A DNA stretch of 64,000 bases from the NCBI GenBank assembly GCA_017420755.1, contig JAFQOG010000005.1:1-64000 (forward strand). Reading direction: 5' to 3'. The DNA is from Clostridia bacterium (GTDB lineage: Bacteria; Bacillota; Clostridia; Oscillospirales; CAG-272). Made by a program: the position numbers and the translations under genes. This document shows positions 43,001-58,375 of the stretch, piece after piece. The notes below the pieces were generated by a model. That model saw only the letters and a list, made by a program, of their open reading frames with translations, had not been told where the DNA came from and did no database searches. How positions within the stretch are numbered: position 1 is the first letter of the stretch; each line of letters opens with the position of its first letter.

Positions 43001-46000
43001 TTCTGCAAATGCATAGTCACCGATAGCACACATATTATCAAGTGAAATTGTGCCCTCAAGGTTACAGTAAGCAAATGCTTCCTTGTTTATGAGCTGTACA
43101 TATTCAAGACCCTCAACCTTTTTGAGGTTTACACAGCCTAAGAATGCGCCATACTCAATAGCCTCCATTGTTGATGGAAGAACGACCTCCTCAAGTGCAG
43201 TTAGGTTTGCAAATGCATATGGATTAATCTTTTTAACACCCTCAGGAATGATTACCTTAGTAATTGTATCTTCACCGATAAACCAAAGCTTTGATGTGCT
43301 TGGATCCTCAGGATCAAGCTCCCATTCCTCTTTAGGAATGTATTCAAAGTTGGAGAATGCAAATTGACCGATTTCGGTAAGCATAAGTGAAGAAGGAATT
43401 TCAACTACTCCACCGTTACCATAATAGTTCTTAAGAGTTGGTGCTGTTGTAATATATGGGTCCTTGACCTCAATGCTTACAGTTTCCGAGTAATATGTGC
43501 TCTCGCCGTCCAACAGTACATTAACGTTTACTGCTGAGAAGCCCTCCTCAAGTGCGAGTATTGTTCCATCCGCTGAAACTTTAACAATAGAGTCATCATC
43601 TGAGGTAAACTCAATCGTTGTATCCTCTGGGAAGAAAGCGTTTAGCTTGTATTGAAGCTTAACCGATTCTGATGGGTAAAGAATCAAGCTATATGCGTCG
43701 TTCGGGAATATTCTGACATCTCCTGTAACGCCTATTTCACGTTCGTTACTATCAACTATGTAGAACGCCTTCAAGGTCTCATAGCCAACCAGCTTAAATT
43801 CGTCTGCGACAGGCTTGTCGTAATACTCAAAGCCCTCATCACCCTCACTAAGTACAGTTACCCTAAATGACCTGGTTTCGTACGTATTCGGGTCAGTGGC
43901 TGTGATTCTTGTAACACCTGGTTCCTTTGCCACAATCTTGTTGTTGACAACAACAGCAACATTTTCATTTGAAGAATAGTAGCTGAGAAGCTCAGGCCAC
44001 TCTGTTTCCGGATAAACAAGAGGTAATAGGCTATATGTTTGGTTAGGGCTTAATGTGATTTCCTCACTCTCAAAGAAGAAATCCTTAAACTCGTCAGGCA
44101 AACCAATTTCGTATGTTGCATCATTTAACGCATAGTCGTAGCATGCAATAACGATAGAGTTGGAATTTACTGCAAAATCTCTTATATCGAAGATGTAGTC
44201 AGTAAGCTCAACCTCCAAGTATGTTGTGCCGTTATATTCAGAATAAATCGGGGTCATAAAGGAGTCAAATGGCTTGAAGTTGTAATCCTTATCAACGTAG
44301 CCAACCTGAGCTGCCATTGAGTAATGGTTATCATAGATAGCCATTCTTGCATAAAGTCTGTTTCTTTCAAGGTCCTTGTCATATTCAAGGTAGAATTCAC
44401 AGTCAGTAACTGCAGGAGCCTCAAAGTCCACAGTTAATGGGAATTCAAATGTGTTTTTAGCATTAGTTGTTAGTCCGTTGTCGTCGTAATCGAGATAACC
44501 AACAAGCTTTACAGTATATTTTGCATTGTTCTTTAGGTTATGCTCTTTTGCATCAAACTCAACATCGACATTTGCAGGATATAGATAAGAGCCACCGTCA
44601 CCATAGGATTTACGTACATCCTTTTCAACTGCTTCAAAGATAACCTCTCCTGTTTGGTCATCAGTAATGGTAATCTCTATCTTACTTGCGTTACGGAGCA
44701 TACCTGCCCAAACAAATCTGATTGAGTGGATTGTTCCCTCAGTATTTGAAATTGCAATATAGTCACGACTTGCAGAAATTATTTTGTTGCTTGGGTCCTG
44801 CAAGAAGTAGTATGAACCAAGATAGCTAACGTAGTCCTCTTCAATTCCACCAATTGGACGTGTTGCGTACGCATCTGGCAATGTTTTGTCAAGGGTTGGA
44901 ATTGTGTCATCAAGCTCATCTGCGTTGGTTTCGAAATAGTCCTTATCAAAGAGAGGAGCCTGTGCCCATGTGCCATAGAATGCAAGGTATGGAACGTTCA
45001 AAACAATATCTGTTCCCCATGTAGGCTTCAAGGAAACAAAGCCCTCAACATACATACCATTTGCAAAGTTAGTATCGATATATTTCTTATTTTCTTCGCT
45101 AAGCTCAATAGTAACCTTAACATCAACCTTTTCGCCTGCACCAACTGTAATATTGTTGCCAATCAAGGTGCCGTTTTTAGATTCAACGGTTACAGCAGCA
45201 CCCTCCAAGAGGTAGCCCTCCTCGGTTACTGTTGTTTGTCCTTGGTGTGTTTTAACATCGCTAACTCCCTCTGTTAAGATGGAAGCAACAACATCATATG
45301 AATAGTACGTTGTGCCAAAGTTAACAAGAGTGAATTCGAGCACATATTTGCCGGTTTTTTGTGGGTCGTCGCCAAGCTCAATCTTGGTCTTGTCCATTGC
45401 CTTTCCGGTGTGTCTATCGTGCGTGATGATATATGTCTTTGTTGTAGTTGCGCTTGTTAAGTTTGCAAGACCTGCGCCTTGTTTTCTTACAGCGTAAGGA
45501 AGACCGTTTTTGTTATAAGCAACATCGGCTGTTGACATCATCAAGCGGTTAACCGTTGCGTTTATATTAACGTCACGCTTATATTCGTTTGTTTCGCCAT
45601 CACCGATAATTTTATCATAATTCTCTGAAACGTACTGACGAAGAAGAATTGTTACGCCGGCAAGGTTTGGACATGCCATTGACGTACCTGAAAGACGGTC
45701 GTATCCACCACCTGTTACAGCAGAAAGAATATTACCACCGTGCGCTGTTATTTCAGGCTTTATGCCGAGGGATGGAGATGGTCCCCAAGATGAGAAGTCA
45801 GACATAAATGGACCTGATGCTTGTGTACGGCTAACTGTAATTTTTCCCGAGCCAGCCGCTGCTAAAACCTTACCGTCCTCTTGTGAAATTGAGCAAACTG
45901 CAAGGCTTGATGTACCAACGTTCATTCTGATATCACCAGAAACGTTGTTAAATACGATAATACCGATAGCGCCCTTTCTTGCGGCAACATTCGCCTTCTC

Positions 46001-47509
46001 CTCAAAGGTGTTTGAGCCACGCTCTACAAGAGCAATTTTGCCCGTTACGTCAATTCCCGCATAGTCTGCGTTACGTCCGGCACCTGGTACTAAAACGTAC
46101 TCAAATTCTTGCTCGTTTTTGCCACTGCCAAGCAAATCATCAAAGAAGCTTCTTTCCTTTGCAGCGCTGTTTGTAGATTCTACGAAATAAACGATTCTAT
46201 CATTATAAAGAATGTAAGGAGTCTTAACACCATTGATTGATGCAACAGACATTGCCCCCTCATAGGTTGAAGGTGAGCCAACGGTTGCAGTATCAGGGTT
46301 TGTTGTAAGACCTAAGTTACCATTTTTCTCAGAGCCATATGCTGAGCTAAAGCTATTTGAAGCGGCAACTATTAAGCTAATGCCCTGCGCACGAATTTTG
46401 TCGTAAACGCCAGTCATAGCCTCCTTGTCAGACTCACGGCTAAAGCCGCAAGCGGTACCAAGAGACATATTGATAACGTCAACGTCCAAAACGACGCAGT
46501 CTTCAAGCGCGTCTAAAATCCAAGACGCCTTTGCGGAGTCTTGAATATCTGAGAATATTTTCATTGAAACGAGCTGTGCGTTTGGTGCAACACCGGTTAT
46601 TGTGTTGTCCTTACCAACGATAACACCGGATACGTGAGTACCATGGTTATTATGTAATGAATAAACGTCGGCATCTCTGTCCGCATAGTCGAATGAGAAT
46701 GGAACCTTATCATTAATATAAACGTCATCAACTGTCAAGCCGTTTACAAGCGAGTATGCTTTTGTCTTTGCAAGACAAGCAGCAATCATATCTCTTGTAA
46801 AGCCAAGCTTTGTTCTATCAGCTGTGAAGTTGTTTAAGGAGAAAGCAGTATGCGTATAGTCAAGACCTGTGTCGAGAACCGCAACTGTCATTCCTGTTCC
46901 ATCATATTTATAGCTGGAGCTATTGAAAATACCTGTGTCATATACGTTAACGCTGTTTTCAACAAGCTTTGTCTCGCTAACGTTATAAACCTCACTAACA
47001 ATGGCGGTTGCCATAGCTTGAGTGCTTTGACAGGTAGCTTCAAAATCCTTTGCTTTAATTACGATTTCAAATCCGCTCAAGAGTACAGAATAATCTGCTC
47101 CTAAAGCGAAATTGATTCCGCTATTTTCAAGCTCACTGATGATTTCCTCCTTTTGAAGAAGAATTTCAGCCTCGAGCTCCCTCGCCTCATCCGTTAAAAC
47201 GTACTCCTGGAATGAAATTTCTCTTTCCACCTTGTTGTACGCATCAAGGAGCGGCGCTGTGTCAAGTGACATAATTATGGATATCTCATCATTATCCTTT
47301 ACACTTGACGGAAGTTTTTGAACGACATTGCCGTCGAAATATTGACTCTTGTCGAGCTGTATCGCATTAGAAACATCTTTTATGTAAGGAGCTTTATAAA
47401 CTGAATCTCCTTGACCAAAAGAAGGAATCACGAGTGCGAAAACAGTAGCCAAAAGCAGTATCACCGAAAGCATAACCGTTGTCGTTCTTGTCAGTACTTT
47501 TCTGTTCAT
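40073..47509 (-). CDS. Giant cell-surface subtilase (S8) with leucine-rich repeats and membrane anchor
   Basis: A 2478-residue secreted serine protease. Signal peptide 1-32, then an I9-like propeptide region to about 195. Catalytic residues: Asp214 (VAVLDTGLDYTH), His290 (NNHGTHVSGV) and Ser near 610 (SGTSMACPNLAGV). A PA-type insert lies between about 440 and 580. A lactocepin/C5a-peptidase-type Fn3 domain (about 690-870), an Ig-like Big_2 domain (SLLPLVYPETEW to ATDPN) and about 900 residues of BspA/LRR_5 repeats (about 1380-2250, e.g. LTNVKLGTKLDTISANAFMN) follow. A single transmembrane segment near 2395 and a Lys-rich tail anchor it. It resembles Lactococcus PrtP in plan, with LRRs added, and lies directly upstream of opp genes. 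Confidence 0.9.
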   Translation of the reverse strand: MNRKVLTRTTTVMLSVILLLATVFALVIPSFGQGDSVYKAPYIKDVSNAIQLDKSQYFDGNVVQKLPSSVKDNDEISIIMSLDTAPLLDAYNKVEREISFQEYVLTDEARELEAEILLQKEEIISELENSGINFALGADYSVLLSGFEIVIKAKDFEATCQSTQAMATAIVSEVYNVSETKLVENSVNVYDTGIFNSSSYKYDGTGMTVAVLDTGLDYTHTAFSLNNFTADRTKLGFTRDMIAACLAKTKAYSLVNGLTVDDVYINDKVPFSFDYADRDADVYSLHNNHGTHVSGVIVGKDNTITGVAPNAQLVSMKIFSDIQDSAKASWILDALEDCVVLDVDVINMSLGTACGFSRESDKEAMTGVYDKIRAQGISLIVAASNSFSSAYGSEKNGNLGLTTNPDTATVGSPSTYEGAMSVASINGVKTPYILYNDRIVYFVESTNSAAKERSFFDDLLGSGKNEQEFEYVLVPGAGRNADYAGIDVTGKIALVERGSNTFEEKANVAARKGAIGIIVFNNVSGDIRMNVGTSSLAVCSISQEDGKVLAAAGSGKITVSRTQASGPFMSDFSSWGPSPSLGIKPEITAHGGNILSAVTGGGYDRLSGTSMACPNLAGVTILLRQYVSENYDKIIGDGETNEYKRDVNINATVNRLMMSTADVAYNKNGLPYAVRKQGAGLANLTSATTTKTYIITHDRHTGKAMDKTKIELGDDPQKTGKYVLEFTLVNFGTTYYSYDVVASILTEGVSDVKTHQGQTTVTEEGYLLEGAAVTVESKNGTLIGNNITVGAGEKVDVKVTIELSEENKKYIDTNFANGMYVEGFVSLKPTWGTDIVLNVPYLAFYGTWAQAPLFDKDYFETNADELDDTIPTLDKTLPDAYATRPIGGIEEDYVSYLGSYYFLQDPSNKIISASRDYIAISNTEGTIHSIRFVWAGMLRNASKIEITITDDQTGEVIFEAVEKDVRKSYGDGGSYLYPANVDVEFDAKEHNLKNNAKYTVKLVGYLDYDDNGLTTNAKNTFEFPLTVDFEAPAVTDCEFYLEYDKDLERNRLYARMAIYDNHYSMAAQVGYVDKDYNFKPFDSFMTPIYSEYNGTTYLEVELTDYIFDIRDFAVNSNSIVIACYDYALNDATYEIGLPDEFKDFFFESEEITLSPNQTYSLLPLVYPETEWPELLSYYSSNENVAVVVNNKIVAKEPGVTRITATDPNTYETRSFRVTVLSEGDEGFEYYDKPVADEFKLVGYETLKAFYIVDSNEREIGVTGDVRIFPNDAYSLILYPSESVKLQYKLNAFFPEDTTIEFTSDDDSIVKVSADGTILALEEGFSAVNVNVLLDGESTYYSETVSIEVKDPYITTAPTLKNYYGNGGVVEIPSSLMLTEIGQFAFSNFEYIPKEEWELDPEDPSTSKLWFIGEDTITKVIIPEGVKKINPYAFANLTALEEVVLPSTMEAIEYGAFLGCVNLKKVEGLEYVQLINKEAFAYCNLEGTISLDNMCAIGDYAFAENGTRIDSNEDGIIDMYDRVVSYNLTGAILPEKLQSIGAYAFYHNESLTDVTVMAEKVKYGPYVFANCTSLKEISMNANVIPEGAFFGCSALETIKIGKDVSTIAEFAFARTNISKFTFDEANGAFKLSENGDYVLSNDGTTLMFVSPTISGEFVLNDPNVVRIARGAFAYNDKITSISIPSVTAVENNAFAYCRNLTSVTLGSLSEIGDYAYFMTKIDTLPSFNNIEELGDYAFAYTKITSVNIPANMVVGEGAFCECKELQSVTIGDGAVLGTGAFMLARDGNFANELVRDPNSKQKVYYFEYTSKLTSLTIGKNVVIGDSAFMGASKLVSVTLGSGAILGEQAFFNAPCLKNIDLSKVKSIGARAFSGDILYTYSDMAGTIVAIDENGYYIYHYYSAGLENIDLSSLEFIGEDAFANCEYLTNVKLGTKLDTISANAFMNCKKLSSINLENVKVIGMQAFAEAPLTEIDLSSCELVDNYAFVKCNSLTKVTLNSNGTKVNEGAFAYDNKLENVINLFRARDIGNYAFAYTAIDRINLAYCETIGDGAFMKETLTPVEVILGENLEKIGENPFALCKLKPFSKIETKEFNGQKYEETIYTFDISDKATVIDGSLYVRVPNGLQMVVFAGTETENVKVADSTVRISAMAFAGSDVIRVTLPESLNSIGHKAFYGCDKLATVIFTSYEAPILEEEFDSAYYECFENFPSVGKYEFSDYNGDILVYEGIGIVPYYMWNVADGKYSNVYYGANFVNQIGHGSPNLVMVRPTNGLYYETFIYSQYFSTVLDGSVAKQDATLEAIEAINRLPDEITLADEQLVILARELYEKAAAIDDQRALIDNYTKLVSAENAILALKSLQVPQEPAPEETPSDGVVEEKDSKVGKIILIVVLSLVGASFLATAIISIVLVIASIKTQTPVSTVVVTWFVKVMQKKLLKQVAKEQKRMEKAQLKAIKKSQKQTRKAKKKASKDDIIIE

Positions 47510-47997: not shown

Positions 47998-48026
47998 TTG
48001 ACAAGCAATATCATTTATGATAAAAT
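47998..48026 (+). promoter_or_regulatory. Promoter of the membrane protein / ferredoxin-thioredoxin operon
   Basis: TTGACA (47998-48003), 17-bp spacer, extended -10 TGATAAAAT with TAAAAT at 48021-48026. Confidence 0.82.
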
Positions 48027-48064: not shown

Positions 48065-48883
48065 ATGACAGAAAAACGAATCAAGCTCGGGCATCTTTTA
48101 TATAGCATAATGCTTTCCTTTTTGTTAGTTGCAATAGGTGTTTGCTTCATTTTATCTTGCTTAGACATTTACAAAAGCGCCGAGAATGCTCCATTCACTC
48201 CTGATGCAATTAAATCCCACTTTTTCGTGTTGCTCATTCCTTCAATTGTTTGTATTCTTACAATCATCGGCGGAGTGTGCCTCAATATTTTCATTCCAAT
48301 GGAAGAGCAAAAGCTACGTGTTAATATCACAGATAAGGATATGATTAAGAACCTTTCCAAGCGTATCAACTACAAGGAAGCTCCAAAAGAGCTTGTTGCT
48401 GTTGTCAAGAGCCAAAGAGGCTTTAGATGTGCGTTTTTAATTATTACAATTCTTAACGCAATTATAAATGGCGCATATATGATTCTTTATGTTCTTTCTA
48501 CTTGTCTAAATCACAAGCCAAATCCAGACCATTTTGCAGAATTTTTCCCGATTTTTGCTACTGCTCTTTCATACGCAATAATCCCAATTTTCGTTATCGT
48601 AATATATCACCTTTTCTCAAGATTTACATACGCAAGAGAGCTTGAGGCTGTTAGAGCAATTTCCGAATATAACGCAAAAAATAGCAACCCTGTGTCTATA
48701 ATCGAGAAAAAGCCTTGCTTTTTTAAAAAGCACAAAAAGGCTTTTGTAAACATTCTTCGTTGCTTTATTTTAGTACTCGCTATCACCTTGATTGTTGTTT
48801 CAATCGTCTTTTTCGACGACTTTAAAGAAATCGCATCCTTAGCAGGCGATAATGTTTGCTCCGGCTGTATTGGACTATTTTAA
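48065..48883 (+). CDS. Five-helix membrane protein of unknown function
   Basis: A 272-residue protein with five probable transmembrane segments, for example SIMLSFLLVAIGVCFILSCL, LLIPSIVCILTIIGGVC and FILVLAITLIVVSIVFF. The loops are positively charged. A run of cysteines (FILSCL, VSTCL-like LSTCLNH, GDNVCSGCIGLF at the C terminus) includes a CxxC pair at the extreme end. I do not recognise a family. It is 12 bases before the 4Fe-4S/thioredoxin gene and under the same promoter, so it may be a partner subunit. The C-terminal CSGC could be a redox site if located outside the membrane. Confidence 0.78.
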   Translation: MTEKRIKLGHLLYSIMLSFLLVAIGVCFILSCLDIYKSAENAPFTPDAIKSHFFVLLIPSIVCILTIIGGVCLNIFIPMEEQKLRVNITDKDMIKNLSKRINYKEAPKELVAVVKSQRGFRCAFLIITILNAIINGAYMILYVLSTCLNHKPNPDHFAEFFPIFATALSYAIIPIFVIVIYHLFSRFTYARELEAVRAISEYNAKNSNPVSIIEKKPCFFKKHKKAFVNILRCFILVLAITLIVVSIVFFDDFKEIASLAGDNVCSGCIGLF

Positions 48884-48895
48884 GGAGGGGGCATT

Positions 48896-50806
48896 ATGGC
48901 AAACGAACAAAAAAGAACCAAATTAAATTTAGTCCCTACCAACGAAAAGGGCGTTTACGAGCACAAGCCGAAGCCAAAATACTCCGATGAGGACTTGGTA
49001 ACCATCAACATCAAGGAATATCTTGATGATGATTCTTTAAGATTTAGAGATTACAGTGATAGCTTTACAACTGAATTTAAAATTCCTTCTCCGCCTCCTC
49101 GCATTGAGGATGAGGACGCGCAGGAATATGTTAAAGATGTTTCTATCGCACACGATACTGTGGTTATTGATATCAGCGAGGTTCCAAAGCCAAAATCTTG
49201 GAAATCACGCGTTTTGGGAGCTTTGAAGAAGCTTATCCCAACAAAAAGACGCCTAATTCAGCTTTACACTGCTCTGCTTTTTAATGCGAATATAAAGGGC
49301 TACATACAAGGCGATATGTTTAGCGGTGTTGAAAAGGGCATTTGTTCCCCTGGTATTAACTGCTATTCATGCCCAGGTGCAATCGGTGCATGTCCTCTTG
49401 GAACACTTCAAAACAGCTTAAAATCACGTAACTATTTCTTACTGATTTTTGGCATACTCTTCCTATATGGTGTTATTTTCGGACGTTTCATTTGTGGATG
49501 GCTTTGTCCATTCGGTCTTGTTCAAGACCTATTATTCAAAATCAAAACACCAAAGCTTAAAAAGAGTCCAGTCACACGAGCACTCTCTTATTTTAAATAT
49601 GTACTCTTGATTTTAGCTGTTGCCTTTGCCGCACTTGGAATCGGCACCATCTTCTGTCAATATATCTGTCCAGCCGGTATTTTAGAGGCAGCATTTGGTA
49701 TGCTACCAGCAAAACCAGTCCTTTTACAGACACTGGGTGCAGGATTTGTTTGGAAATTCTCGCTATTTGTTTCATTCGTTGTTGTTTCAATATTCGTTTA
49801 TCGTGCATTCTGCCGTTTCATTTGTCCTTTGGGCGCAATTTACAGCTTGTTCAATAGATTTTCAATTCTTGGAATCAAGCTTGAAAAGCCAAAGTGCACA
49901 AACTGTGGACGTTGTATTGCAAAATGTAAAATGGATATTCGTCAGGTCGGCGACCGTGAATGTATCAGTTGTGGCGAATGTATAGATGTCTGCCCTACTA
50001 AGGCAATTTCCTTCAAGGGACCAAAAATCTTGCTTGCTCCAAACGAAATTGATATCCCAGAAAACGCAAGTGAGAAGGAAATTTCAGATATCAAGACTAA
50101 GCAAGCTGAAATCAATGCAAAAGCCAAGAAACGCAACAATATTGTCAAAGGCGTTATTGGTGGACTTATGGCGCTTTTGATGGTTGGCGCACTTGTTTAC
50201 TACAATATCATTAAAAACAATGAATTATGGGGTCGCGACGACGATGCTCCACCATCTATATTTGAAACAGATACAGAATCCGATACAAGCAACGGCACTG
50301 ATAATACCGAGCCAGTAGCTCCAAAGCCACCTGTTGGTAACCAAATTGGAAATTCCTGCCCGAGTGCAGCTTTGCAGATTTTTGATGAAAACGGCTTCAC
50401 TGGTGAATCCATCAATCCAACAAAGACTGGCAAGGTTACAGTTATCAACTTCTGGTACACCACATGTACATCTTGTGTAAATGAAATGCCGTATTTTGAC
50501 ACTATCGCTTCAAAACATCGCGACTCTGTTGTTGTTATTGAAATTCACTCAGACAACACCTCATTCAAGGATGCTTTCACATTCGTTCAAGACAACTATT
50601 TAGAAACAAATATGATATTTGCCAAGGACGTTAAGGGTGCAAATTACGACCAGTACTACACCGCGCTTGGTGGTGCGTATGGCGCATATCCAATGACTGT
50701 AATTCTCGATGAAAACGGCGTTATCACATACACAACCCCAGGCTCGATAACCGAAGCCAAGTTAACCGAAGAGGTTGAAAAGGCACTTGGAATTATCAAA
50801 GAATAA
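48896..50806 (+). CDS. Membrane-bound 4Fe-4S protein fused to an external thioredoxin-like domain
   Basis: A 636-residue fusion. Residues 1-110 are soluble and acidic. About 120-330 is a NapH/NosR/CcoG-like membrane part with CYSCPGAIGACPLG, CGWLCPFGLVQD, CQYICPAGIL and CRFICPLGAI, the CxxxCP motifs of that family. Two 4Fe-4S clusters follow (CTNCGRCIAKC near 333 and CISCGECIDVCP near 356). A transmembrane helix (about 417-440), a Thr/Asp-rich linker and a TlpA/thioredoxin domain with FWYTTCTSCVNEMP (CxxC near 523) complete it. If the ferredoxin part is cytoplasmic, the thioredoxin part is outside. I infer electron transfer from ferredoxins across the membrane to external disulphides. Confidence 0.88.
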   Translation: MANEQKRTKLNLVPTNEKGVYEHKPKPKYSDEDLVTINIKEYLDDDSLRFRDYSDSFTTEFKIPSPPPRIEDEDAQEYVKDVSIAHDTVVIDISEVPKPKSWKSRVLGALKKLIPTKRRLIQLYTALLFNANIKGYIQGDMFSGVEKGICSPGINCYSCPGAIGACPLGTLQNSLKSRNYFLLIFGILFLYGVIFGRFICGWLCPFGLVQDLLFKIKTPKLKKSPVTRALSYFKYVLLILAVAFAALGIGTIFCQYICPAGILEAAFGMLPAKPVLLQTLGAGFVWKFSLFVSFVVVSIFVYRAFCRFICPLGAIYSLFNRFSILGIKLEKPKCTNCGRCIAKCKMDIRQVGDRECISCGECIDVCPTKAISFKGPKILLAPNEIDIPENASEKEISDIKTKQAEINAKAKKRNNIVKGVIGGLMALLMVGALVYYNIIKNNELWGRDDDAPPSIFETDTESDTSNGTDNTEPVAPKPPVGNQIGNSCPSAALQIFDENGFTGESINPTKTGKVTVINFWYTTCTSCVNEMPYFDTIASKHRDSVVVIEIHSDNTSFKDAFTFVQDNYLETNMIFAKDVKGANYDQYYTALGGAYGAYPMTVILDENGVITYTTPGSITEAKLTEEVEKALGIIKE

Positions 50807-50815
50807 AATCCACAT

Positions 50816-50885
50816 CAAAAAGGCATTGATTTTAGTCAATGCCTTTTTCTATAAGAAAAAAGGATGCCGAAGCATCCTTTTCTTT
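50816..50885. terminator. Two consecutive terminators between convergent genes
   Basis: AAAAAGGCATTGA/TCAATGCCTTTTT (50816-50848) and AAAAAGGATGC/GCATCCTTTTCTTTT (50855-50885). Both are symmetrical and can end transcription from either side. Confidence 0.88.
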
Positions 50886-53035
50886 TATTCGCCTTGCTTT
50901 GGTGCTGTTATAATCAATTTAACCTCAGCATCACTTTCGGATGAAAGGTGTAAAAGAACTCTTGAATTAGTTCCCAAATCACCACTATTAACTATATATG
51001 ATAGGACCTCACCGGTCAAAATCTCAACTGTTTTACCACCAATAATAACCTCAAGCTTTACATCCTTGTTGTCAATAGCAATTGTTGTACCTTGGATATA
51101 GAAGATTGTATAATATACATCCTCGCCAGCATTTAAGGCAATAGTTGTTGTGCTACTTTCAGGCTCATCACCATTAACCAAGAAAGGATATTCAAGGCTA
51201 CCATCACGCTTGTGATTTATATGAACATCTATGCTTGTTTCGTCGCCAAACGGGAGATATTCCGCTTGTGTTTCGTACTCCTCGCTAAAAATAGCTTTTA
51301 TAAAGTAATTTGCAGCTTCTGTAAGTCCAGCAAATGTATATTTGCCGTTTTCATCACATGTCGCCTCTTTGATTAGTGTGTATTCATCATTTTCATACTT
51401 ATAAAGCTCTATTTTTGCGTTTGGTGAAATTTCATTTTCAAGTAAAACATTAACATTATAGTCTGCCTTTGTTTGTGCAAAGGTCATTGTTGCAGAAATA
51501 ACAATTTCCGGATATTCAACATCCACACTGCTATCGTTCTTTGAGGCAAAGCAAATAAGAACTGTTTCTCCAACCTTTACTGATTTTTTGTTTGGATTAC
51601 CGTTTATTAAGATATATGCATATTCTGTTGTGCTTTCAATTCTAACTGTGCCATCCTTGTCAGCAACAAATGAATAATAAACCTCTTTGTTTTCAGGAAC
51701 CTTTATATCGAACACATAGCTCTCAGTTGCATCAATCTTAAAAGGTGTTTCTTTTGAGCCCGGACGATAAATAATACCGGTAATTTTTTCGCCTGCTTCA
51801 TCGGAGGTTGAAAGTTTAAACTTGCCGCCGTTTTTGGAATTCAATACAACTCTTATAACACCGTTTTCGTCGGCTGAGTAATCCTCTATTCCATAGCGAA
51901 TAATTGCTGTTTTAGATTCAATTTCAATCACCTTGCCATCATAATCGGGGACGCTATACCATAGTGAAGCATCCTTTTCAAGTGATACATCAATATCACC
52001 AGGTAAAAAGATTGCCGTATTTCTTGATGAGCCTGCAGCTTCCTCTGATAAAATCATATCGGCTGTCATTGCGTGATTTTTCTTAAATTCGACAACATCT
52101 GCATAAAGACCATTCTTCGAGTTAACAACAACGAAATAATCGCCGTTTACTAAGTTAAAGGAGTGCGCGCCATTTTCTTTGGTTGTACCAGAGCCAATAA
52201 GCTTTAAGCTCTTATCATATAATAGCAGCTCAACGCCCTCTTGCGATACACCATTTTCATCCTTTACAAAAACAGTGTAGAAAAAGGCAGCATTGCTAAT
52301 AGTGAATTGTACATTAACCTTTTTTCCATTTTCAAAGCTGATTTGATGACCGCCAACAGGTGAAAAGGCGTAGTTGCCTTCGCTGTGAGATACTGCTGCC
52401 GTGTAGCTATCGCCCGGTTCAACAGTAAACGAAGCCTTGCCATCCTCTCCTGTAACAACGCTGTCAACAACCTCAAGCGCACCGTCAAGAAGCTCAACCA
52501 AAATGTTTTCAAGAGCCTTTCCGTGCATATCGGTTGCTGTAATCACATATGTTTCAAGGCGTTTAATAACAACCTTAACAACGGTTTTTCCTTCTGGGAA
52601 AGGGGTCTTCTCGGTTGTCATTACATATCCGTCAGGCACTTCGTTAATTTGCACCTTGAAGCTTTCAAGCTTGTTGTATTCATATTTTGCAACGCCCTCT
52701 GCGTCTGTTATCTTTTGTGGCAAGCAGAGCTTATCATTACAAATTTGAAGGTCAACACCCTCAACAGGCTGTCCTAATTGGTCTTCGACATAAACTGTAT
52801 AATATACAGGGCCGCTTGTTTCTCCACCGTTTGTCTCAGTGTTTGTTTCGCTTTCTGTTACTTTATCAGTTTCTGTCTGGCTTCCCGTGTCTGTGCTTGA
52901 ATCAGATGTGGTTGGCTTATCAGCCTCTGTATCGGTATCTGTATCGGAATCAGATGTACCACCACACGAAGCGAATATTAGAGTCATACTAAAAATGAAA
53001 GCTACTATTAGTAAAATTGCAAATATTTTTTTCAT
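50885..53035 (-). CDS. Multidomain lipoprotein with SpaA/prealbumin-like repeats
   Basis: A 716-residue surface lipoprotein. The lipobox is LIFASCGGT (Cys near 24), followed by a 50-residue Ser/Thr/Asp/Glu linker with DSDTDTDTE. Then come several beta domains of the SpaA/Cna-B or carboxypeptidase-regulatory type: YTVYVEDQLGQPVEGVDLQI (about 78), YVITATDMHGKALENILVEL (about 158) and YTVFVKDENGVSQEGVELLL (about 240), and YNVNVLLENEISPNAKIEL (about 515). Between and after them are jelly-roll-like segments with YYSF or YYTIFY strands. No catalytic motif is visible. It has its own promoter and faces the ferredoxin-thioredoxin gene. Confidence 0.85.
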   Translation of the reverse strand: MKKIFAILLIVAFIFSMTLIFASCGGTSDSDTDTDTEADKPTTSDSSTDTGSQTETDKVTESETNTETNGGETSGPVYYTVYVEDQLGQPVEGVDLQICNDKLCLPQKITDAEGVAKYEYNKLESFKVQINEVPDGYVMTTEKTPFPEGKTVVKVVIKRLETYVITATDMHGKALENILVELLDGALEVVDSVVTGEDGKASFTVEPGDSYTAAVSHSEGNYAFSPVGGHQISFENGKKVNVQFTISNAAFFYTVFVKDENGVSQEGVELLLYDKSLKLIGSGTTKENGAHSFNLVNGDYFVVVNSKNGLYADVVEFKKNHAMTADMILSEEAAGSSRNTAIFLPGDIDVSLEKDASLWYSVPDYDGKVIEIESKTAIIRYGIEDYSADENGVIRVVLNSKNGGKFKLSTSDEAGEKITGIIYRPGSKETPFKIDATESYVFDIKVPENKEVYYSFVADKDGTVRIESTTEYAYILINGNPNKKSVKVGETVLICFASKNDSSVDVEYPEIVISATMTFAQTKADYNVNVLLENEISPNAKIELYKYENDEYTLIKEATCDENGKYTFAGLTEAANYFIKAIFSEEYETQAEYLPFGDETSIDVHINHKRDGSLEYPFLVNGDEPESSTTTIALNAGEDVYYTIFYIQGTTIAIDNKDVKLEVIIGGKTVEILTGEVLSYIVNSGDLGTNSRVLLHLSSESDAEVKLIITAPKQGE

Positions 53036-53079
53036 TTTATCCTCCTAATTTATTTAAAATCTTACTTTTAGACACAAGT

Positions 53080-53108
53080 ATTATATCATTAAACTGTTTA
53101 TTTTGCAA
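53080..53108 (-). promoter_or_regulatory. Promoter of the 716-residue lipoprotein gene
   Basis: Minus strand: TTGCAA (53103-53108), 17-bp spacer, TATAAT (53080-53085). Confidence 0.8.
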
Positions 53109-53129
53109 TAATTTATTTATATATAAAGA

Positions 53130-53159
53130 AAAAAGAGCCGAAAATCGGCTCTTTTTATA
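53130..53159 (-). terminator. Terminator of the 562-residue lipoprotein gene
   Basis: AAAAAGAGCCGA pairs with TCGGCTCTTTTT around AAA. The stop codon of the gene lies at its edge (53155-53157). Confidence 0.87.
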
Positions 53160-54843
53160 TTTTTGTAACATATGTGAATGAAATATCAAGCTTTTGCTCG
53201 TTTGTGTTGGTGATTGAGAACTCTATAGGATAAGTGCCCTCTATGATTTCTTTTGTTTCTTCATCCTCATATACATAAGGAATTAAATCAAGAACTATTT
53301 CAATTTTTCCATTTTCATCTGCTATATATTCAGTGTCAACACCATTAACCTTAATCTTTATGCCTTGAGCATTTTTGATTGTGAGGGTAGCTGCCCTTTG
53401 CTTTGATGCAACAAAATAAAGTGTTTGTCCAGCATCGATATTAACATGATAAGCGATTGGGTCTATTGTGTCATCAATTACAATTTTGCTATCCTCTGCA
53501 CCTTTTTCGTTTTCAACCAAATAAGCACAAGCGAAAAGCCATGCATTCTTTTCCGGAACCTCTATTTTTTCGCCCTCTATAACATTGCCATTTTCATCCA
53601 CTATATCAGGATATTTGAAAATGTTTTGTTCTCCGTACCAGCCCTGTTGCTCAAGAATGTTTTTGATTGCATACTCAAGCTCCTTTGTTAGTGGAACAAC
53701 GCCAGCCAAATCGCACTTTTCTGCATATTTTTCTATCATATTGTTATATACTTCTTCTCTTAGTGGTGTGCCATTTTCATCCACAAAGATTTTAAAAAGC
53801 TTTGTTGTTTCGCACATTTTACTAAATGAAGCAATATATCTGCTCGCGCTTGTTATTCTCACAAGCACAATTGCTCCGTCTTCGTTGCCCAAATGATAAA
53901 ATCCATCGTTTTCACTGTAAACAACATTAAGATTTTTGTCTGTCACATCAAGATCAACAATATCGGCATTTAAATAATTATATTCGCAGACCTTGCTTGG
54001 CACTTGTGTTGGTACATAATCAAGCTTTTGAATTTCCTTGGTTGGATCTCCTATGCGCTCAACAGTTAAAAAGCAGCTGTCGGTCGCCAAGGACTTAACG
54101 CCTATTACAAAAATCGGATATTGGTCGCCGTTTTGAACCTCTGCTGTAAAGGCTCTATCCTTTATTTCAACAGTACTTTCCTCAAGCACGTATCCACTTT
54201 GTCCAAAGAATCCAATCGTGATTGCGACATCGCAAATATAGCTAAACTTGTACACTCCCCCCACCGTAGGCTGGAAAAGATAGTACGATTGGTTGTCAAT
54301 TGCGACCTTGTTTGCGCCCTCTTTTACAAATTGCGCTTCGTAGTCAAATCTTTCGCCTTCCTTTGCGTTGTATGGGACAATTGTCATTTTTCTGTCAGTT
54401 GCTTCATTGTAAAGCATGACCTCTTTAGTTGGTGCATTCTTTGACAAAACACATTCCGACTCGTCATATATAACGCCTTCGTCAGTATAAATAAGCTCAA
54501 AGGTGTAGTTGTCACCATCAAGTGTAGTAGTAACCTCACCGTTTGCATTTGTCTTTTTCATGCCACCAATTTCTTCGCCATCCTTTAAAAGCTGAACAAA
54601 CACACCTGAGGTGATAGGCTCTCCCTTGAAATTAACAACCTTGACGGTGTATTCCGTTTCTGTTGACTCATTTTCTGTGTCGGTATTTGTGTCAGTTTCT
54701 GTTTCTTTGTCATTTTTATCGGAGCTTGTGTTGGCTGTTGTATCAGTTTTTGTATCAGTGTCCTTATCAGAACCACCACATGCTGCAAAAATAAAGAGCG
54801 AAAGAAAAACAAAAGCTATAATTAATAATATTTTCTTATTCAT
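53155..54843 (-). CDS. Multidomain lipoprotein with SpaA-like and shared repeat domain
   Basis: A 562-residue surface lipoprotein. The lipobox is FIFAACGGS (Cys near 22), followed by a TDTKTDTT and ETDTNTDTE-rich linker. The SpaA-like domain (about 66-145) starts EYTVKVVNFKGEPITSGVFV. A PPC-like beta domain (YYLFQPTVGGVYKFSYICD near 195) follows. A segment of about 130 residues (about 304-437; NDGFYHLGNEDGAIVLVRI to WLFACAYL) also occurs twice in the next lipoprotein upstream (54898-58302). No enzyme motif is visible. It lies 54 bases after that gene and may be expressed by read-through. Confidence 0.83.
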   Translation of the reverse strand: MNKKILLIIAFVFLSLFIFAACGGSDKDTDTKTDTTANTSSDKNDKETETDTNTDTENESTETEYTVKVVNFKGEPITSGVFVQLLKDGEEIGGMKKTNANGEVTTTLDGDNYTFELIYTDEGVIYDESECVLSKNAPTKEVMLYNEATDRKMTIVPYNAKEGERFDYEAQFVKEGANKVAIDNQSYYLFQPTVGGVYKFSYICDVAITIGFFGQSGYVLEESTVEIKDRAFTAEVQNGDQYPIFVIGVKSLATDSCFLTVERIGDPTKEIQKLDYVPTQVPSKVCEYNYLNADIVDLDVTDKNLNVVYSENDGFYHLGNEDGAIVLVRITSASRYIASFSKMCETTKLFKIFVDENGTPLREEVYNNMIEKYAEKCDLAGVVPLTKELEYAIKNILEQQGWYGEQNIFKYPDIVDENGNVIEGEKIEVPEKNAWLFACAYLVENEKGAEDSKIVIDDTIDPIAYHVNIDAGQTLYFVASKQRAATLTIKNAQGIKIKVNGVDTEYIADENGKIEIVLDLIPYVYEDEETKEIIEGTYPIEFSITNTNEQKLDISFTYVTKI

Positions 54844-54862
54844 AATTTCTCCGTTTTAAATA

Positions 54863-54892
54863 AATTAGGCGGAGATTAACCACCGCCTAATT
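54863..54892 (-). terminator. Weak terminator or intercistronic hairpin
   Basis: AATTAGGCGG pairs with CCGCCTAATT around a 10-base loop; on the minus strand it is followed only by TATTTAAAAC. It would only partly stop transcription between the two lipoprotein genes. Confidence 0.5.
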
Positions 54893-54897
54893 ATAAA

Positions 54898-57800
54898 TTA
54901 TTCGGCAACTTTAGGACCGAGTTCTTCGTAGTAGTAGCAAAGCTTTGTCCAAGAGTTTTCAACGCCCTCAAATGTGAATTTATCCATGAGCATTTGAAGT
55001 GCCTCTGCAAGCTCCTCTGTTACTGCAACACAGCCCTGTCTTTCTGGGAAGCCAGCCTCATCAAGCATCAAGCCAACATATTTTTCAATAACTGAAGAAT
55101 AGTTAGGTGCCAAAACTGCCCCCTCCGGAGGTGTGATGAGCACTGCTTCTGTTTCGAGTGTTTCCTCGTCAACTATAACATACTCATATCCATATGCCTT
55201 GTATTTTCCATCAACAATATATCCATGGTATTTACCATTGAGAATATCGTCCATTTGATAGAATTCCCAGTTTTCCTCAAAATCAGCGCCCCACAGCTCG
55301 CGAAGCTCGTCCTCGCTGTAATTGCTAAGGTAAGCCATAGCTTGTTGGTCAACCTCGGTTATAGCGAAATTGAATGCCTTTGACTTTAAAAGATCCTTAA
55401 TAGACATTGTTGTAAAGATGCTTGTATATTGATGGAAATCCGCGTAAACAATTGAGCCAAGTGAACCATCCTCTAAAACATGATGGTAATAGCCGTCGTC
55501 ACCGAGCTTAACATCAATTCCACCGGCGATTGTATCACCTTGTGCTCCACCAATACCCTCTTCCCAAGTGAATGGTCCAGGAGATGCAGAAATGAAGTAA
55601 TCAAAAGTTTCACCAATGTACTTCACATCAAATGTGAACTTACCATATTGATATTGATCGTAGTAAGCGAAGTCGATGTAATATTCCTTGCCTTCTTCCA
55701 TATATGCAACCAATGTTGCGTTAGTATAGTCTCTTTGGAAAATTCCGTCACCATCCGGATCAACAAGCAATTCCTCGCAGAATCTTTCACCAACATCGGA
55801 ATATGTGTATTGGATTCTGTCGCCATTTTTAACCCATTCATCGTGATTACCAATGAAAATCCATCCGTCAACCTCATAAATACTATCGGTTGTGAATCTA
55901 TATACACCAGATTTTGTTGGAACAAATTTATAGAGCAAGCCTCTTGGCATGATAACTCTATTATATTCAACAAGGTTTGGCGCGTCTTCCTTTACCTCAT
56001 ACGCGCTAAACGGAGCAAGTCCCTTAATTGGGTCCTCAAGCTGTTTTCCGTCTGTTCCGTAAGCATCATAGTAATAGCAAAGTGTTAACCACTGGTTAGG
56101 GTTGCCTCTGCCGATACCATTGTTTTGTTTAACAAACGCATTAAGATACTTTTGAAGCGTTGGTGTAACTGGGCAGTAAGAATAAATTTGTGAGTTTGAT
56201 GCGTAGTTACAATATTGAATTAAATCATCATAGCAGTTAACACCGTCAATAATAAGCTCCTTAGTTTCTGTGATTTTAAGTGTTAAGGAGATATTATTTG
56301 AATAGTTTGTATAGTTAATCAAGCTTGCCAAAAGAAGTGGACCGTTTTTATCGCCAACATGGTAGTAGCCATCATCGCCGAGAACAACTGAAATGTAATT
56401 TTCATAATCAGCAAGGTCGTCGGTAAGGTCCGATACTGCATCACGAGGAATGAAGGTTTCAACATCAACCTCTTTAGCCTTTACAACGCGGAAATTCTTC
56501 AAATAAACCGCATCGTCTCCCTCATAATCGGAAATATTCTTTAAGTAAACGAATGCAACATCATATGTGCCATCTTCATTTGCAACCCATGGACAGCAAC
56601 CGCTCCATTCCTCACTTTCACCTGAAATGGTGTATATATCCTTATTGTTAACTAAAACATAAAGAATATCATATCCTTGCTCAGTTGAAGCAAAGTAATC
56701 GAACATAAATGCTTCGCCAGCCTTTAAGGTAACTGATGCATGAAGAATAGCGAAGGATGAATCCTTATCGAAGTTTGATGGCTTAATGCAAGCAACGCCA
56801 TCCTTGCTTGTCACAATAAATGGCCAAGCATATTCCGCATCGCTTGAATCCTTTTCAGGGGAATAGATAATTCCACTATTTGTGGTGCCAAGAACCTTAT
56901 CAAGAGCATCTTGAGGTGGCATTTCCTCAGTTGGCTTATCGGTAGGAGTCAATTCTGTGATGTCGTTAAAAATGTTTTGCTTGTAGTTCTCATCAGTTTG
57001 AATATAGTATTCAAAGAGCATATCAAAATATTTTTCGCTTGGAACTGCGCCACTGTGCATAAATGAAATCATGCCATAGCGGTCAATAACGATGGTAACA
57101 GGGTTACCAGTGATGCCAAATGCACTTTCAATATCGTTTGCATCCTTAAGCATTGGGAGGTCAAGTCCAAACGCGCCAACAATACCAGCCTTAGCGTTAG
57201 CGAAAATAGTATCAATATTATCTGTATTCGCTTCGTTTAACTCTGTCACAAAATTAGCAAGAGCTGCTCTTAGCTTGTTATCATCAGCATCTGCAATTGC
57301 TGTTTCGATTGATTGAGCAAGTGTCTTAGCCGCAGTGCTAACATCACCTGTATTCTTAATGCTTGCAAGCAAATTATCAAGCTCGGCTTCTATTTTTGTC
57401 TTATCAAAGCTATTTAAGCTGATATTAGGATTAGTAACAAGTGTTGCAGCAAGCGCCTTTAAGGAATCGTCCTTTTTGAGCTCATCGCAAATTGCGTTGT
57501 AGCTTCCGAATTTAGCATAGAATGCTGATTTAAAGTTGCTCACAGCTGTTTCGTTATCTCCACCAAGCTTGCCGTTCAATGCAAAAAGTGCAACCCTGTC
57601 GCTGTATTTTGCATAAGAAGCCTCCATATCTGGGAACTCCTCAATACAGTATGAGCAGGTTGTGAACCAGAAGTTAAGAACGATAGCCTTCTTTTCCTTC
57701 AAGATATCAGAGAACTTGTATGTGGTTCCGTCAAGCACGATTGAATAATCATAGATAATGTCCCCAAGCTTGTAGTTAGCAGCAGAGGCATCTCCACTTC

Positions 57801-58302
57801 TTGGCTTGGATTCGAGCTCAATGTCAGCAACACCGTTTTCGTCAAACTTGTACAAATCCTCAACTATGTAGCCCTTAGGAACATCCTCGATGGAAACTGT
57901 AAATTCCTCACCTGCTGGCAAAACAAATGAAGCGCTACCATTTTTATCGGTCTTACCCATTCTATCCTTAGAAATATTGCCAAGTGAGTCATAAATATAC
58001 ACTCTTATGTTTTCAAGAGGCATTTTTCCTTTTGTTTTTACAGTAACAGTAACCTTTTTGTCTCCCTCTGGCACTTGTTGGTCAGAGTCAGAGTCAGAAT
58101 CGGAATCTGAATCGGAATCAGAATCGGAATCAGTTTCTGTGTCAGTTTCAGATTGAACTGTATCATCGTTTTTGTCTGAGCTGTTTGCTGACGTATCGGT
58201 ATCTGTATCACCAGAACCGCCACAAGACGCAAAAACAAGGATTACGCCCACAAGCATAAGAACAACTAAAACGATAGACAATAGTTTTTTTGATTTTAGC
58301 AT
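54898..58302 (-). CDS. Large lipoprotein with thioredoxin (TlpA-like) domain and repeated C-terminal domain
   Basis: A 1134-residue surface lipoprotein. The lipobox is LVFASCGGS (Cys near 27), followed by an Asp/Ser linker with nine SD pairs. Next are a SpaA-like domain (about 83-165) and a TlpA/redoxin domain starting near 180 (IVLDGTTYKFSDILKEKKAI, LNFWFTTCSYCIEEFPD with CSYC near 214). A helical insertion of about 120 residues (TAVSNFKSAFYAKFG to GIVGAFGLDL) splits it before GNPVTIVIDRYGMI, the cis-Pro region. Two copies of a domain beginning GDDGYYH (about 638-750 and 930-1130) surround a PPC-like domain (LYKFVPTKSGVYRFTTDS). The active-site CxxC suggests a thiol-disulphide role on the outer surface. 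Confidence 0.86.
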   Translation of the reverse strand: MLKSKKLLSIVLVVLMLVGVILVFASCGGSGDTDTDTSANSSDKNDDTVQSETDTETDSDSDSDSDSDSDSDSDQQVPEGDKKVTVTVKTKGKMPLENIRVYIYDSLGNISKDRMGKTDKNGSASFVLPAGEEFTVSIEDVPKGYIVEDLYKFDENGVADIELESKPRSGDASAANYKLGDIIYDYSIVLDGTTYKFSDILKEKKAIVLNFWFTTCSYCIEEFPDMEASYAKYSDRVALFALNGKLGGDNETAVSNFKSAFYAKFGSYNAICDELKKDDSLKALAATLVTNPNISLNSFDKTKIEAELDNLLASIKNTGDVSTAAKTLAQSIETAIADADDNKLRAALANFVTELNEANTDNIDTIFANAKAGIVGAFGLDLPMLKDANDIESAFGITGNPVTIVIDRYGMISFMHSGAVPSEKYFDMLFEYYIQTDENYKQNIFNDITELTPTDKPTEEMPPQDALDKVLGTTNSGIIYSPEKDSSDAEYAWPFIVTSKDGVACIKPSNFDKDSSFAILHASVTLKAGEAFMFDYFASTEQGYDILYVLVNNKDIYTISGESEEWSGCCPWVANEDGTYDVAFVYLKNISDYEGDDAVYLKNFRVVKAKEVDVETFIPRDAVSDLTDDLADYENYISVVLGDDGYYHVGDKNGPLLLASLINYTNYSNNISLTLKITETKELIIDGVNCYDDLIQYCNYASNSQIYSYCPVTPTLQKYLNAFVKQNNGIGRGNPNQWLTLCYYYDAYGTDGKQLEDPIKGLAPFSAYEVKEDAPNLVEYNRVIMPRGLLYKFVPTKSGVYRFTTDSIYEVDGWIFIGNHDEWVKNGDRIQYTYSDVGERFCEELLVDPDGDGIFQRDYTNATLVAYMEEGKEYYIDFAYYDQYQYGKFTFDVKYIGETFDYFISASPGPFTWEEGIGGAQGDTIAGGIDVKLGDDGYYHHVLEDGSLGSIVYADFHQYTSIFTTMSIKDLLKSKAFNFAITEVDQQAMAYLSNYSEDELRELWGADFEENWEFYQMDDILNGKYHGYIVDGKYKAYGYEYVIVDEETLETEAVLITPPEGAVLAPNYSSVIEKYVGLMLDEAGFPERQGCVAVTEELAEALQMLMDKFTFEGVENSWTKLCYYYEELGPKVAE

Positions 58303-58346: not shown

Positions 58347-58375
58347 ATTATATCACACGGGCGGTTATTTGTCAA
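58347..58375 (-). promoter_or_regulatory. Promoter of the thioredoxin-lipoprotein gene
   Basis: Minus strand: TTGACA (58370-58375), 17-bp spacer, TATAAT (58347-58352), a full consensus match. Confidence 0.88.

Follow-up and report, generated by a model that had tools for sequence, protein, structure and literature searches.

The transfer of cytoplasmic electrons to surface or periplasmic thioredoxins has been described for systems built on CcdA, such as the CcdA-Etrx-MsrAB2 pathways of Streptococcus pneumoniae (PMC3914529) and the CcdA-eTrx-MsrAB2-ModRS cluster of Fusobacterium, which includes a two-component system (PMC12288474). Electrons are also carried by NapH-like flavinylated conduits, which have FMN partners (PMC8238504). 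A bioRxiv preprint of November 2025 reports a three-gene 4Fe-4S/TlpA/CxxC operon in several Clostridia of the gut and names Blautia wexlerae, Anaerostipes hadrus and Phascolarctobacterium as carriers; it describes the operon as predictive of immune side effects of immunotherapy and raises reduction of extracellular or cell-surface targets as a possibility only (PMC12637426). The terms CcdA, NapH, fusion and CD1871A were not found in the text of PMC12637426. Here, we analysed a stretch of 64,000 nucleotides (the window), part of a 74-kb contig of a gut bacterium of the Clostridia (genome of 1.8 Mb, 87% complete), which encodes an iron-sulfur membrane protein fused to a thioredoxin (the fusion), a membrane protein with a CxxC tail (mem272) and a thioredoxin lipoprotein (lpTrx) with two companions (lpA and lpB).

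This gene set probably exports thiol-reducing electrons in the place of CcdA, so that surface proteins can stay reduced. From the sequence and the comparison of genomes, we consider it likely that it acts as a transmembrane thiol-reductant exporter, doing the job of CcdA by means of iron-sulfur clusters instead of a thiol relay. An initial annotation of this DNA had proposed an electron relay through these proteins; its three open reading frames lie where it had placed them, and its relay interpretation is supported by the analysis that follows. The unfused three-gene operon is already in the preprint cited above. In the literature searched, outside of which lie most subscription journals, we found nothing on the fusion, on the replacement of CcdA or on giant thioredoxin lipoproteins, no paper using the name CD1871A (an NCBIfam family, see below), and no described route that keeps surface thiols reduced in anaerobes without CcdA and probably without quinones. 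For surface-thiol reduction in such anaerobes, the locus provides a concrete candidate.

The genes mem272 and fusion form a rightward pair separated by a gap of 12 bases, with the following features:

47998-48026, forward strand: promoter-like site TTGACA-17-TAAAAT with TG before the -10 element, 38 bp 5' of mem272; an 11/12 consensus match, which is not proof of a promoter
48065-48883, forward strand: mem272, five-helix membrane protein, a long form of CD1871A whose C-terminal CxxC tail is predicted to be extracytoplasmic
48857-48868, forward strand: CSGC of the mem272 tail (residues 265-268), with IGLF and the stop codon after it
48896-50806, forward strand: fusion of a NapH-like 4Fe-4S membrane protein and a TlpA/ResA-like thioredoxin, 636 amino acids
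49343-49393, forward strand: N-terminal motif C-x5-C-x2-C-x6-CP of the fusion (C150, C156, C159, C166), predicted extracytoplasmic, candidate outer cluster
49493-49507, forward strand: CX3CP of the fusion, residues 200-204, cysteines invariant, predicted inner face
49655-49669, forward strand: CX3CP of the fusion, residues 254-258, cysteines invariant, predicted outer face
49811-49825, forward strand: CX3CP of the fusion, residues 306-310, cysteines invariant, predicted inner face
49895-49993, forward strand: two 4Fe-4S ferredoxin motifs of the fusion, residues 334-366, predicted cytoplasmic
50141-50197, forward strand: transmembrane segment of the fusion, residues 416-434, between the ferredoxin and thioredoxin parts
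50348-50803, forward strand: TlpA/ResA-like thioredoxin domain of the fusion, with CTSC (residues 524-527) at 50465-50476
50858-50881, forward strand: terminator-like hairpin 3' of the fusion

The initial annotation had read the 636-residue protein as a NapH/CcoG-like 4Fe-4S part joined to a TlpA-like CxxC domain past a transmembrane helix, and the domain matches bear this out. Above the Pfam cut-offs, the fusion matches Fer4_5 (78 bits), Fer4_7, Fer4, Redoxin (44 bits) and AhpC-TSA (35 bits), with the segment 416-434 preceding the last two. CX3CP membrane motifs together with two 4Fe-4S motifs are typical of NapH/MauN, and both are present. Among the NCBIfam models, NapH/MauN (TIGR02163) ranks first with 89.4 bits, below its curated cut-off of 213.05, and CcoG (TIGR02745) is a distant match with 33.5 bits, below its cut-off of 316.7. 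The thioredoxin part matches structures of StoA, ResA and TlpA, which are reductant-type thioredoxins, and P599 presumably represents the thioredoxin cis-Pro site. As in TlpA/ResA-type proteins, the fusion and lpTrx each have a domain over the PF08534/PF00578 cut-off, a CxxC, an E-x-P and a later Pro; neither reaches the NCBIfam cut-offs for ResA, StoA or TlpA. The soluble N-terminal extension of the fusion (48896-49210, ∼105 residues) aligns with few relatives, namely L063 and some members of the genus.

Hydrophobic segments were found at residues 181-199, 236-254, 283-301 and 416-434, with a weaker one at 309-327. Counts of K/R to D/E are 7:1 for the loop of residues 200-235 and 1:1 for residues 255-282; the ferredoxin loop (328-415) has 18:13, and the thioredoxin part (435-636) has 13:30. 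Because of this charge bias, the sequence favours a topology with the ferredoxin loop inside and the thioredoxin outside, as had been assumed at first; the weak segment 309-327 and a weak first helix leave some doubt. In line with an outside thioredoxin, 17 of the 18 unfused TlpA genes counted at 20 class loci (all but that of L195) encode an N-terminal hydrophobic segment or a lipobox.

The iron-sulfur part is strongly conserved. Its 18 cysteines (four in the N-terminal motif, six in the CX3CP motifs and eight in the ferredoxin motifs) are invariant in 22 fused and unfused sequences, and these 18 and both CxxC cysteines are also invariant in an alignment of the window copy with 73 of the 76 complete fusions among the named loci (L113, L116 and L120 being omitted). 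This alignment has 73 invariant columns, and all 74 sequences match Redoxin. Conservation values from rows that had been picked by the CxxC itself were left aside for this motif. The named loci are the best 80 matches to fused query sequences, and in 78 of them the iron-sulfur protein and the thioredoxin are fused. Because of this frequency and of the 73 invariant columns, we regard the fusion as more than a chance joining of two genes. Nine of 79 fusions carry two thioredoxin domains in tandem, with a CxxC in the last domain in all nine and in the first domain only in L067. A tree of 131 cores places 91 of the 92 rows labelled fused, together with four unfused rows, to one side of its deepest branch; the remaining label, that of L154, was given by length only, and the thioredoxin of L154 is a separate gene. 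The N-terminal cysteine motif is missing from four ordinary NapH-like loci, and these genes (L029-L032) were for this reason kept out of what we call the NapH type. A phage origin was rejected, relatives of the core being encoded by no viral contig. The fusion also occurs in metagenome-assembled genomes labelled Fretibacterium (Synergistota) and Mycoplasmatota (L128, L134 and L137), by gene transfer or misbinning.

The protein encoded at 48065 had been noted for its CSGC ending and put forward as a possible third component, which the conserved tail of its homologues bears out. According to the positive-inside rule, its N-terminus is predicted inside and its C-terminus outside, with five helices and the CSGC tail exposed. 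A homologue was present in 77 of the 80 named loci, every one ending in CxxC-[IV]-G-[LMV]-G; none was found in L086, L096 and L102. When homologues were picked by homology and position alone, all 85 had a C-terminal CxxCxGxx. In the tails examined, a basic stretch is followed by one helix and then by 10-18 residues. The C-terminal part corresponds to the 38-residue NCBIfam domain CD1871A (NF040920), for which four of four mem272 relatives tested were over the cut-off (32.6-39.9 bits, cut-off 32); mem272 of the window gave no match to NF040920, and it has the CD1871A trait of a CxxCxGxx (CSGCIGLF) directly upstream of a 4Fe-4S gene. From its sequence, mem272 is a diverged long form of CD1871A.

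The association of tail and iron-sulfur gene extends to other loci. In the family, all 14 additional loci have the tail just upstream of the iron-sulfur gene, mostly in the form of a small gene; in the class, 29 of 30 loci have it (the 30 best of 65 matches, the genome of the window among them), the sole miss sitting at a contig start. TlpA was found within 1.5 kb in 10/14 and 25/30 of these loci, respectively. No CxxC tail was present at the four ordinary NapH-like genes. In the cultured Peptoclostridium acidaminophilum DSM 3953, the genes for TlpA, CD1871A and the 4Fe-4S protein lie in this order, and an MFS gene of opposite strand separates the first two. The CxxC family CD1871A would gain a likely role from the reductant-export reading.

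The lipoprotein genes all lie on the reverse strand, oriented toward the mem272-fusion pair:

50885-53035, reverse strand: lpA, lipoprotein of Ig/SpaA-like repeats, conserved neighbour
53155-54843, reverse strand: lpB, lipoprotein with sequence in common with the C-terminal part of lpTrx
54898-58302, reverse strand: lpTrx, lipoprotein of 1134 amino acids that combines a redoxin domain with a long surface part at its C-terminus
58347-58375, reverse strand: promoter-like site TTGACA-17-TATAAT 5' of lpTrx, a 12/12 consensus match

The fusion had been described as facing the thioredoxin lipoprotein; the opposed orientation is correct, but the two are not adjacent, lpA and lpB lying between them. 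That lpTrx is a lipoprotein with a CxxC thioredoxin domain of its own was confirmed by a lipobox, a Redoxin/AhpC-TSA match at residues 190-241 within a redoxin domain of residues ∼177-412, and CSYC at 216-219. C216, C219, E222, P224 and P401 are invariant in 26 sequences, and the profile of this 26-member alignment matches ResA structures (E 6e-32). The fusion and lpTrx are the only two PF00578 matches in the genome, which encodes one more small thioredoxin-like protein (PF13098) on another contig. The sequence common to lpB and the C-terminal part of lpTrx has no Pfam name, and a short tandem repeat occurs at 58082-58133, in a Ser-Asp-rich stretch 3' of the lpTrx lipobox.

A search for co-occurrence across genomes, which the initial annotation had suggested, gave a close association. 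Among 146 genomes of the family, 11 have the fusion, 11 a full-length lpTrx (out of 24 genomes matched, the other 13 matching short parts only) and 10 both (p = 1.4e-13; like all p values here, it ignores shared ancestry). Among 29 genomes of the genus, the numbers are 16, 17 and 16 (p = 2.5e-7). The only family genome with lpTrx alone, G081, has a contig that ends ∼350 bases past lpB. The neighbourhood is conserved in part, as had been predicted: 4 of 10 family relatives (G089, G117, G054 and G031) have the arrangement lpTrx-lpB-lpA facing fusion-mem, and lpTrx lies on the same contig, ∼17 kb from the fusion, in three more (G003, G118 and G010). Neither of the two outcomes that the initial annotation had named as refuting it, a thioredoxin domain predicted inside the cell or a lack of any conserved neighbourhood, was obtained.

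These distances bear on a first alternative, in which the module with the fusion would export thiol-reducing power, and the surface lipoproteins lpTrx, lpB and lpA would have no relation to it beyond their location. Besides the three genomes with ∼17 kb between the genes, G112 and G115 have lpTrx on a different contig from the fusion; the fusion and the lipoproteins have separate promoter-like sites; G068 has the fusion and no lpTrx, with no contig end to account for the absence; and lpTrx was found in the fetched stretch of only 24/80 named loci (16/37 where each flank had ≥8 kb). The last two observations weigh against our reading of lpTrx as a client. However, the co-occurrence of the two genes holds even without adjacency, the CxxC and P401 of lpTrx are invariant, and no CcdA was found in the genome. 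We therefore hold this alternative to be unlikely.

The absence of CcdA, asserted at first from the window, was confirmed for the genome, in which no CcdA/DsbD match (PF02683) was found at 87% completeness. Of the 146 family genomes, 53 have a TlpA-type domain, and 51 of these have either the NapH type or a short CcdA. The NapH type is present in 24 genomes, all with TlpA, and the short CcdA in 28, 27 of them with TlpA; the two never occur together in the 146 genomes. TlpA is fused to the NapH type or lies ≤1.5 kb from it in 21 of 24 genomes, and it lies beside the short CcdA in 27 of 28. The two genomes with TlpA and neither partner (G081 and G106) both have it at contig ends, and in G135, the short-CcdA genome without TlpA, the neighbour of CcdA is a different thioredoxin that has a hydrophobic segment at its N-terminus. 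The NapH type and the short CcdA alternate inside the genera g4, g31 and g41. That TlpA goes with either CcdA or the NapH type is near a rule in this family, and the same pairing with either CcdA or the iron-sulfur module can serve as a comparative prediction.

These counts depend on several choices. The 24 NapH genomes remain from 30 matched after G050, G078, G116 and G011 were dropped as ordinary NapH-like and G039 and G083 as thioredoxin-only. The TlpA threshold of 1e-12 was set after seeing a gap between 3e-13 and 7e-11, and the TlpA alignment contains mostly NapH-linked and lipoprotein TlpA (2/36 rows are CcdA-linked), so that unlike TlpA types could be missed. Three long, copper-type PF02683 proteins (L207, L208 and L209) were rejected as CcdA, their best Pfam matches being DsbD_2 (PF13386) and HMA; two of them have a weak cupredoxin-like match. 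A search with PF02683 by itself would take them for CcdA. G028 has only such a long form and no TlpA.

A second alternative is that the iron-sulfur protein delivers electrons to an outside acceptor other than a thiol, such as Fe(III), Cu(II) or a small molecule, and that the thioredoxin only assembles or protects it. CcoG, the distant match of the fusion, is a copper reductase. NapH-like conduits are, in addition, modular and serve several acceptors (PMC8238504). Against this, no acceptor enzyme, FMN-binding domain or cytochrome domain came up when the neighbouring genes were scanned with Pfam. It is TlpA that constantly accompanies the protein, and the module never coexists with the short CcdA in the family. 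This alternative seems to us improbable.

Several points nevertheless count against the export reading, in addition to the lpTrx exceptions given above. The family exclusion rests on dropping the three long PF02683 matches, a choice made after seeing them: without the long forms, the overlap is 0/24 (p = 0.004), and with them it is 2/24 (p = 0.07). In the class sample, in which long PF02683 forms were left unsorted and which has only the window's own genome in common with the family sample, the same trend is seen but is weaker, and the exclusion is partial: among 341 genomes, 53 have the NapH type (out of 65 matched, 12 being dropped with matches weaker than E 1e-60 that start at model position 38 or later), 176 have PF02683 and 16 have both, against 27.4 expected (one-sided p = 5e-4). 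The neglect of shared ancestry affects all of these tests. If segment 309-327 of the fusion spanned the membrane, the ferredoxin would be turned outward, and the proposed topology needs an extra helix before the N-terminal cysteine motif, for which the candidate at ∼118-140 is weakly hydrophobic. Finally, the iron-sulfur branch of the window copy is long in the tree, and its tail has diverged (CSGCIGLF instead of the usual CTECIGLG).

In the exporter as we picture it, the parts and their co-occurrence are observed, and the electron-transfer steps, every one of which we infer, would be the following. Low-potential electrons of cytoplasmic ferredoxin would enter one at a time at the inner clusters and cross through the membrane iron-sulfur clusters to the outer cluster. 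There they would be paired to a dithiol. This could happen at the CxxC tail of mem272, which would swing as a dithiol arm, or else at surplus cysteines of the outer side, whose disulfide would be linked to a cluster much as in ferredoxin:thioredoxin reductase. That enzyme is soluble and ferredoxin-fed, and its 4Fe-4S cluster adjoins a redox-active disulfide; to our knowledge, it is unrelated in sequence to the fusion. From the CxxC tail, electrons would pass to the fused outer thioredoxin, and from there to lpTrx and other surface clients, for example methionine sulfoxide reductase. We are inclined, if only slightly, to regard the whole as a transmembrane ferredoxin:thioredoxin reductase made of a 4Fe-4S chain and a flexible CxxC tail, used for thiol export in anaerobes, repeatedly swapped with CcdA, and found here as a two-gene unit feeding lpTrx.

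Quinol is an unlikely donor, because UbiA did not reach the cut-off in any of 13 genomes of the genus (one match, in G489, is below it). Cytoplasmic ferredoxin would be the donor because of the ferredoxin motifs and the presumed anaerobic life; in this scheme, the order of the thiol steps and the place of lpTrx downstream would be as the initial annotation had proposed. The reverse arrangement, an oxidant system for disulfide formation in which exported thiols would give up their electrons to the outer thioredoxins, to be carried inward by the iron-sulfur protein, draws on the fact that we infer the direction of flow, but it is very improbable, as electron passage from thiols to ferredoxin is uphill and the domains are nearest to the reductant types TlpA, ResA and StoA. 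Moreover, CcdA, the alternative partner, is described as carrying reducing equivalents outward (PMC12288474).

The surroundings of unfused triads give hints at where such exported electrons might be used. In one relative, an MsrAB with a lipobox is encoded ∼1.6 kb from the TlpA gene, and a rhodanese lipoprotein lies beside another triad. MsrA was rejected as a constant client, its motif being found in 1/20 class loci only (Pfam-confirmed there). Response-regulator-like genes lie within ∼6 kb of 8/20 class triads (L187, L188, L190, L192, L195, L198, L200 and L202). The triads of L187, L188 and L200 are also near ABC-transporter genes, FtsX/MacB-like by eye. These neighbours suggest envelope-stress control. 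The unfused operon has been tied to immunotherapy side effects via gut Clostridia (PMC12637426), and thiol export would offer a testable explanation for this operon.

Elsewhere in the window, a 2478-amino-acid secreted subtilase (S8, PA, Fn3-like, Big_2 and BspA-type LRR) is encoded at 40073-47509, on the far side of mem272, and many of the fused loci have a large related protein encoded next to the membrane gene in divergent orientation. A DUF1538 protein is encoded at 25649-27253. The GC content along the window is 36-42%, the lipoprotein stretch being at the low end. No riboswitch or other RNA element was found near the genes at the Rfam gathering score (five weak matches).

Compared with the described systems, the locus combines known parts in a different way. 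As in the preprint operon, all three kinds of part are present, here as one two-gene unit; there they are three separate proteins, whereas here the iron-sulfur protein and TlpA are fused, the CxxC tail is carried by a five-helix protein, and giant thioredoxin lipoproteins are added (PMC12637426). Like CD1871A, which is annotated beside a 4Fe-4S protein in P. acidaminophilum, relatives of mem272 carry the C-terminal domain NF040920, but mem272 is extended to five helices and the window copy is below detection. The flavinylated conduits likewise use a Fer4_5 membrane protein as a modular transmembrane electron conduit; however, they feed FMN-binding domains, some probably from quinol, whereas here the partner is a thioredoxin and an extra N-terminal cysteine motif and a CxxC-tail gene are present (PMC8238504). 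As in the CcdA-Etrx pathways, cytoplasmic electrons would reach surface or periplasmic thioredoxins (PMC3914529), and the response-regulator-like genes near class triads recall the ModRS cluster of Fusobacterium; CcdA, in contrast, works with a cysteine pair fed by cytoplasmic thiols, in the place of which the present system has iron-sulfur clusters that are probably ferredoxin-fed (PMC12288474). As in ferredoxin:thioredoxin reductase, one-electron iron-sulfur donors would be coupled to a two-electron disulfide, but the fusion system would span the membrane, whereas that enzyme is soluble.

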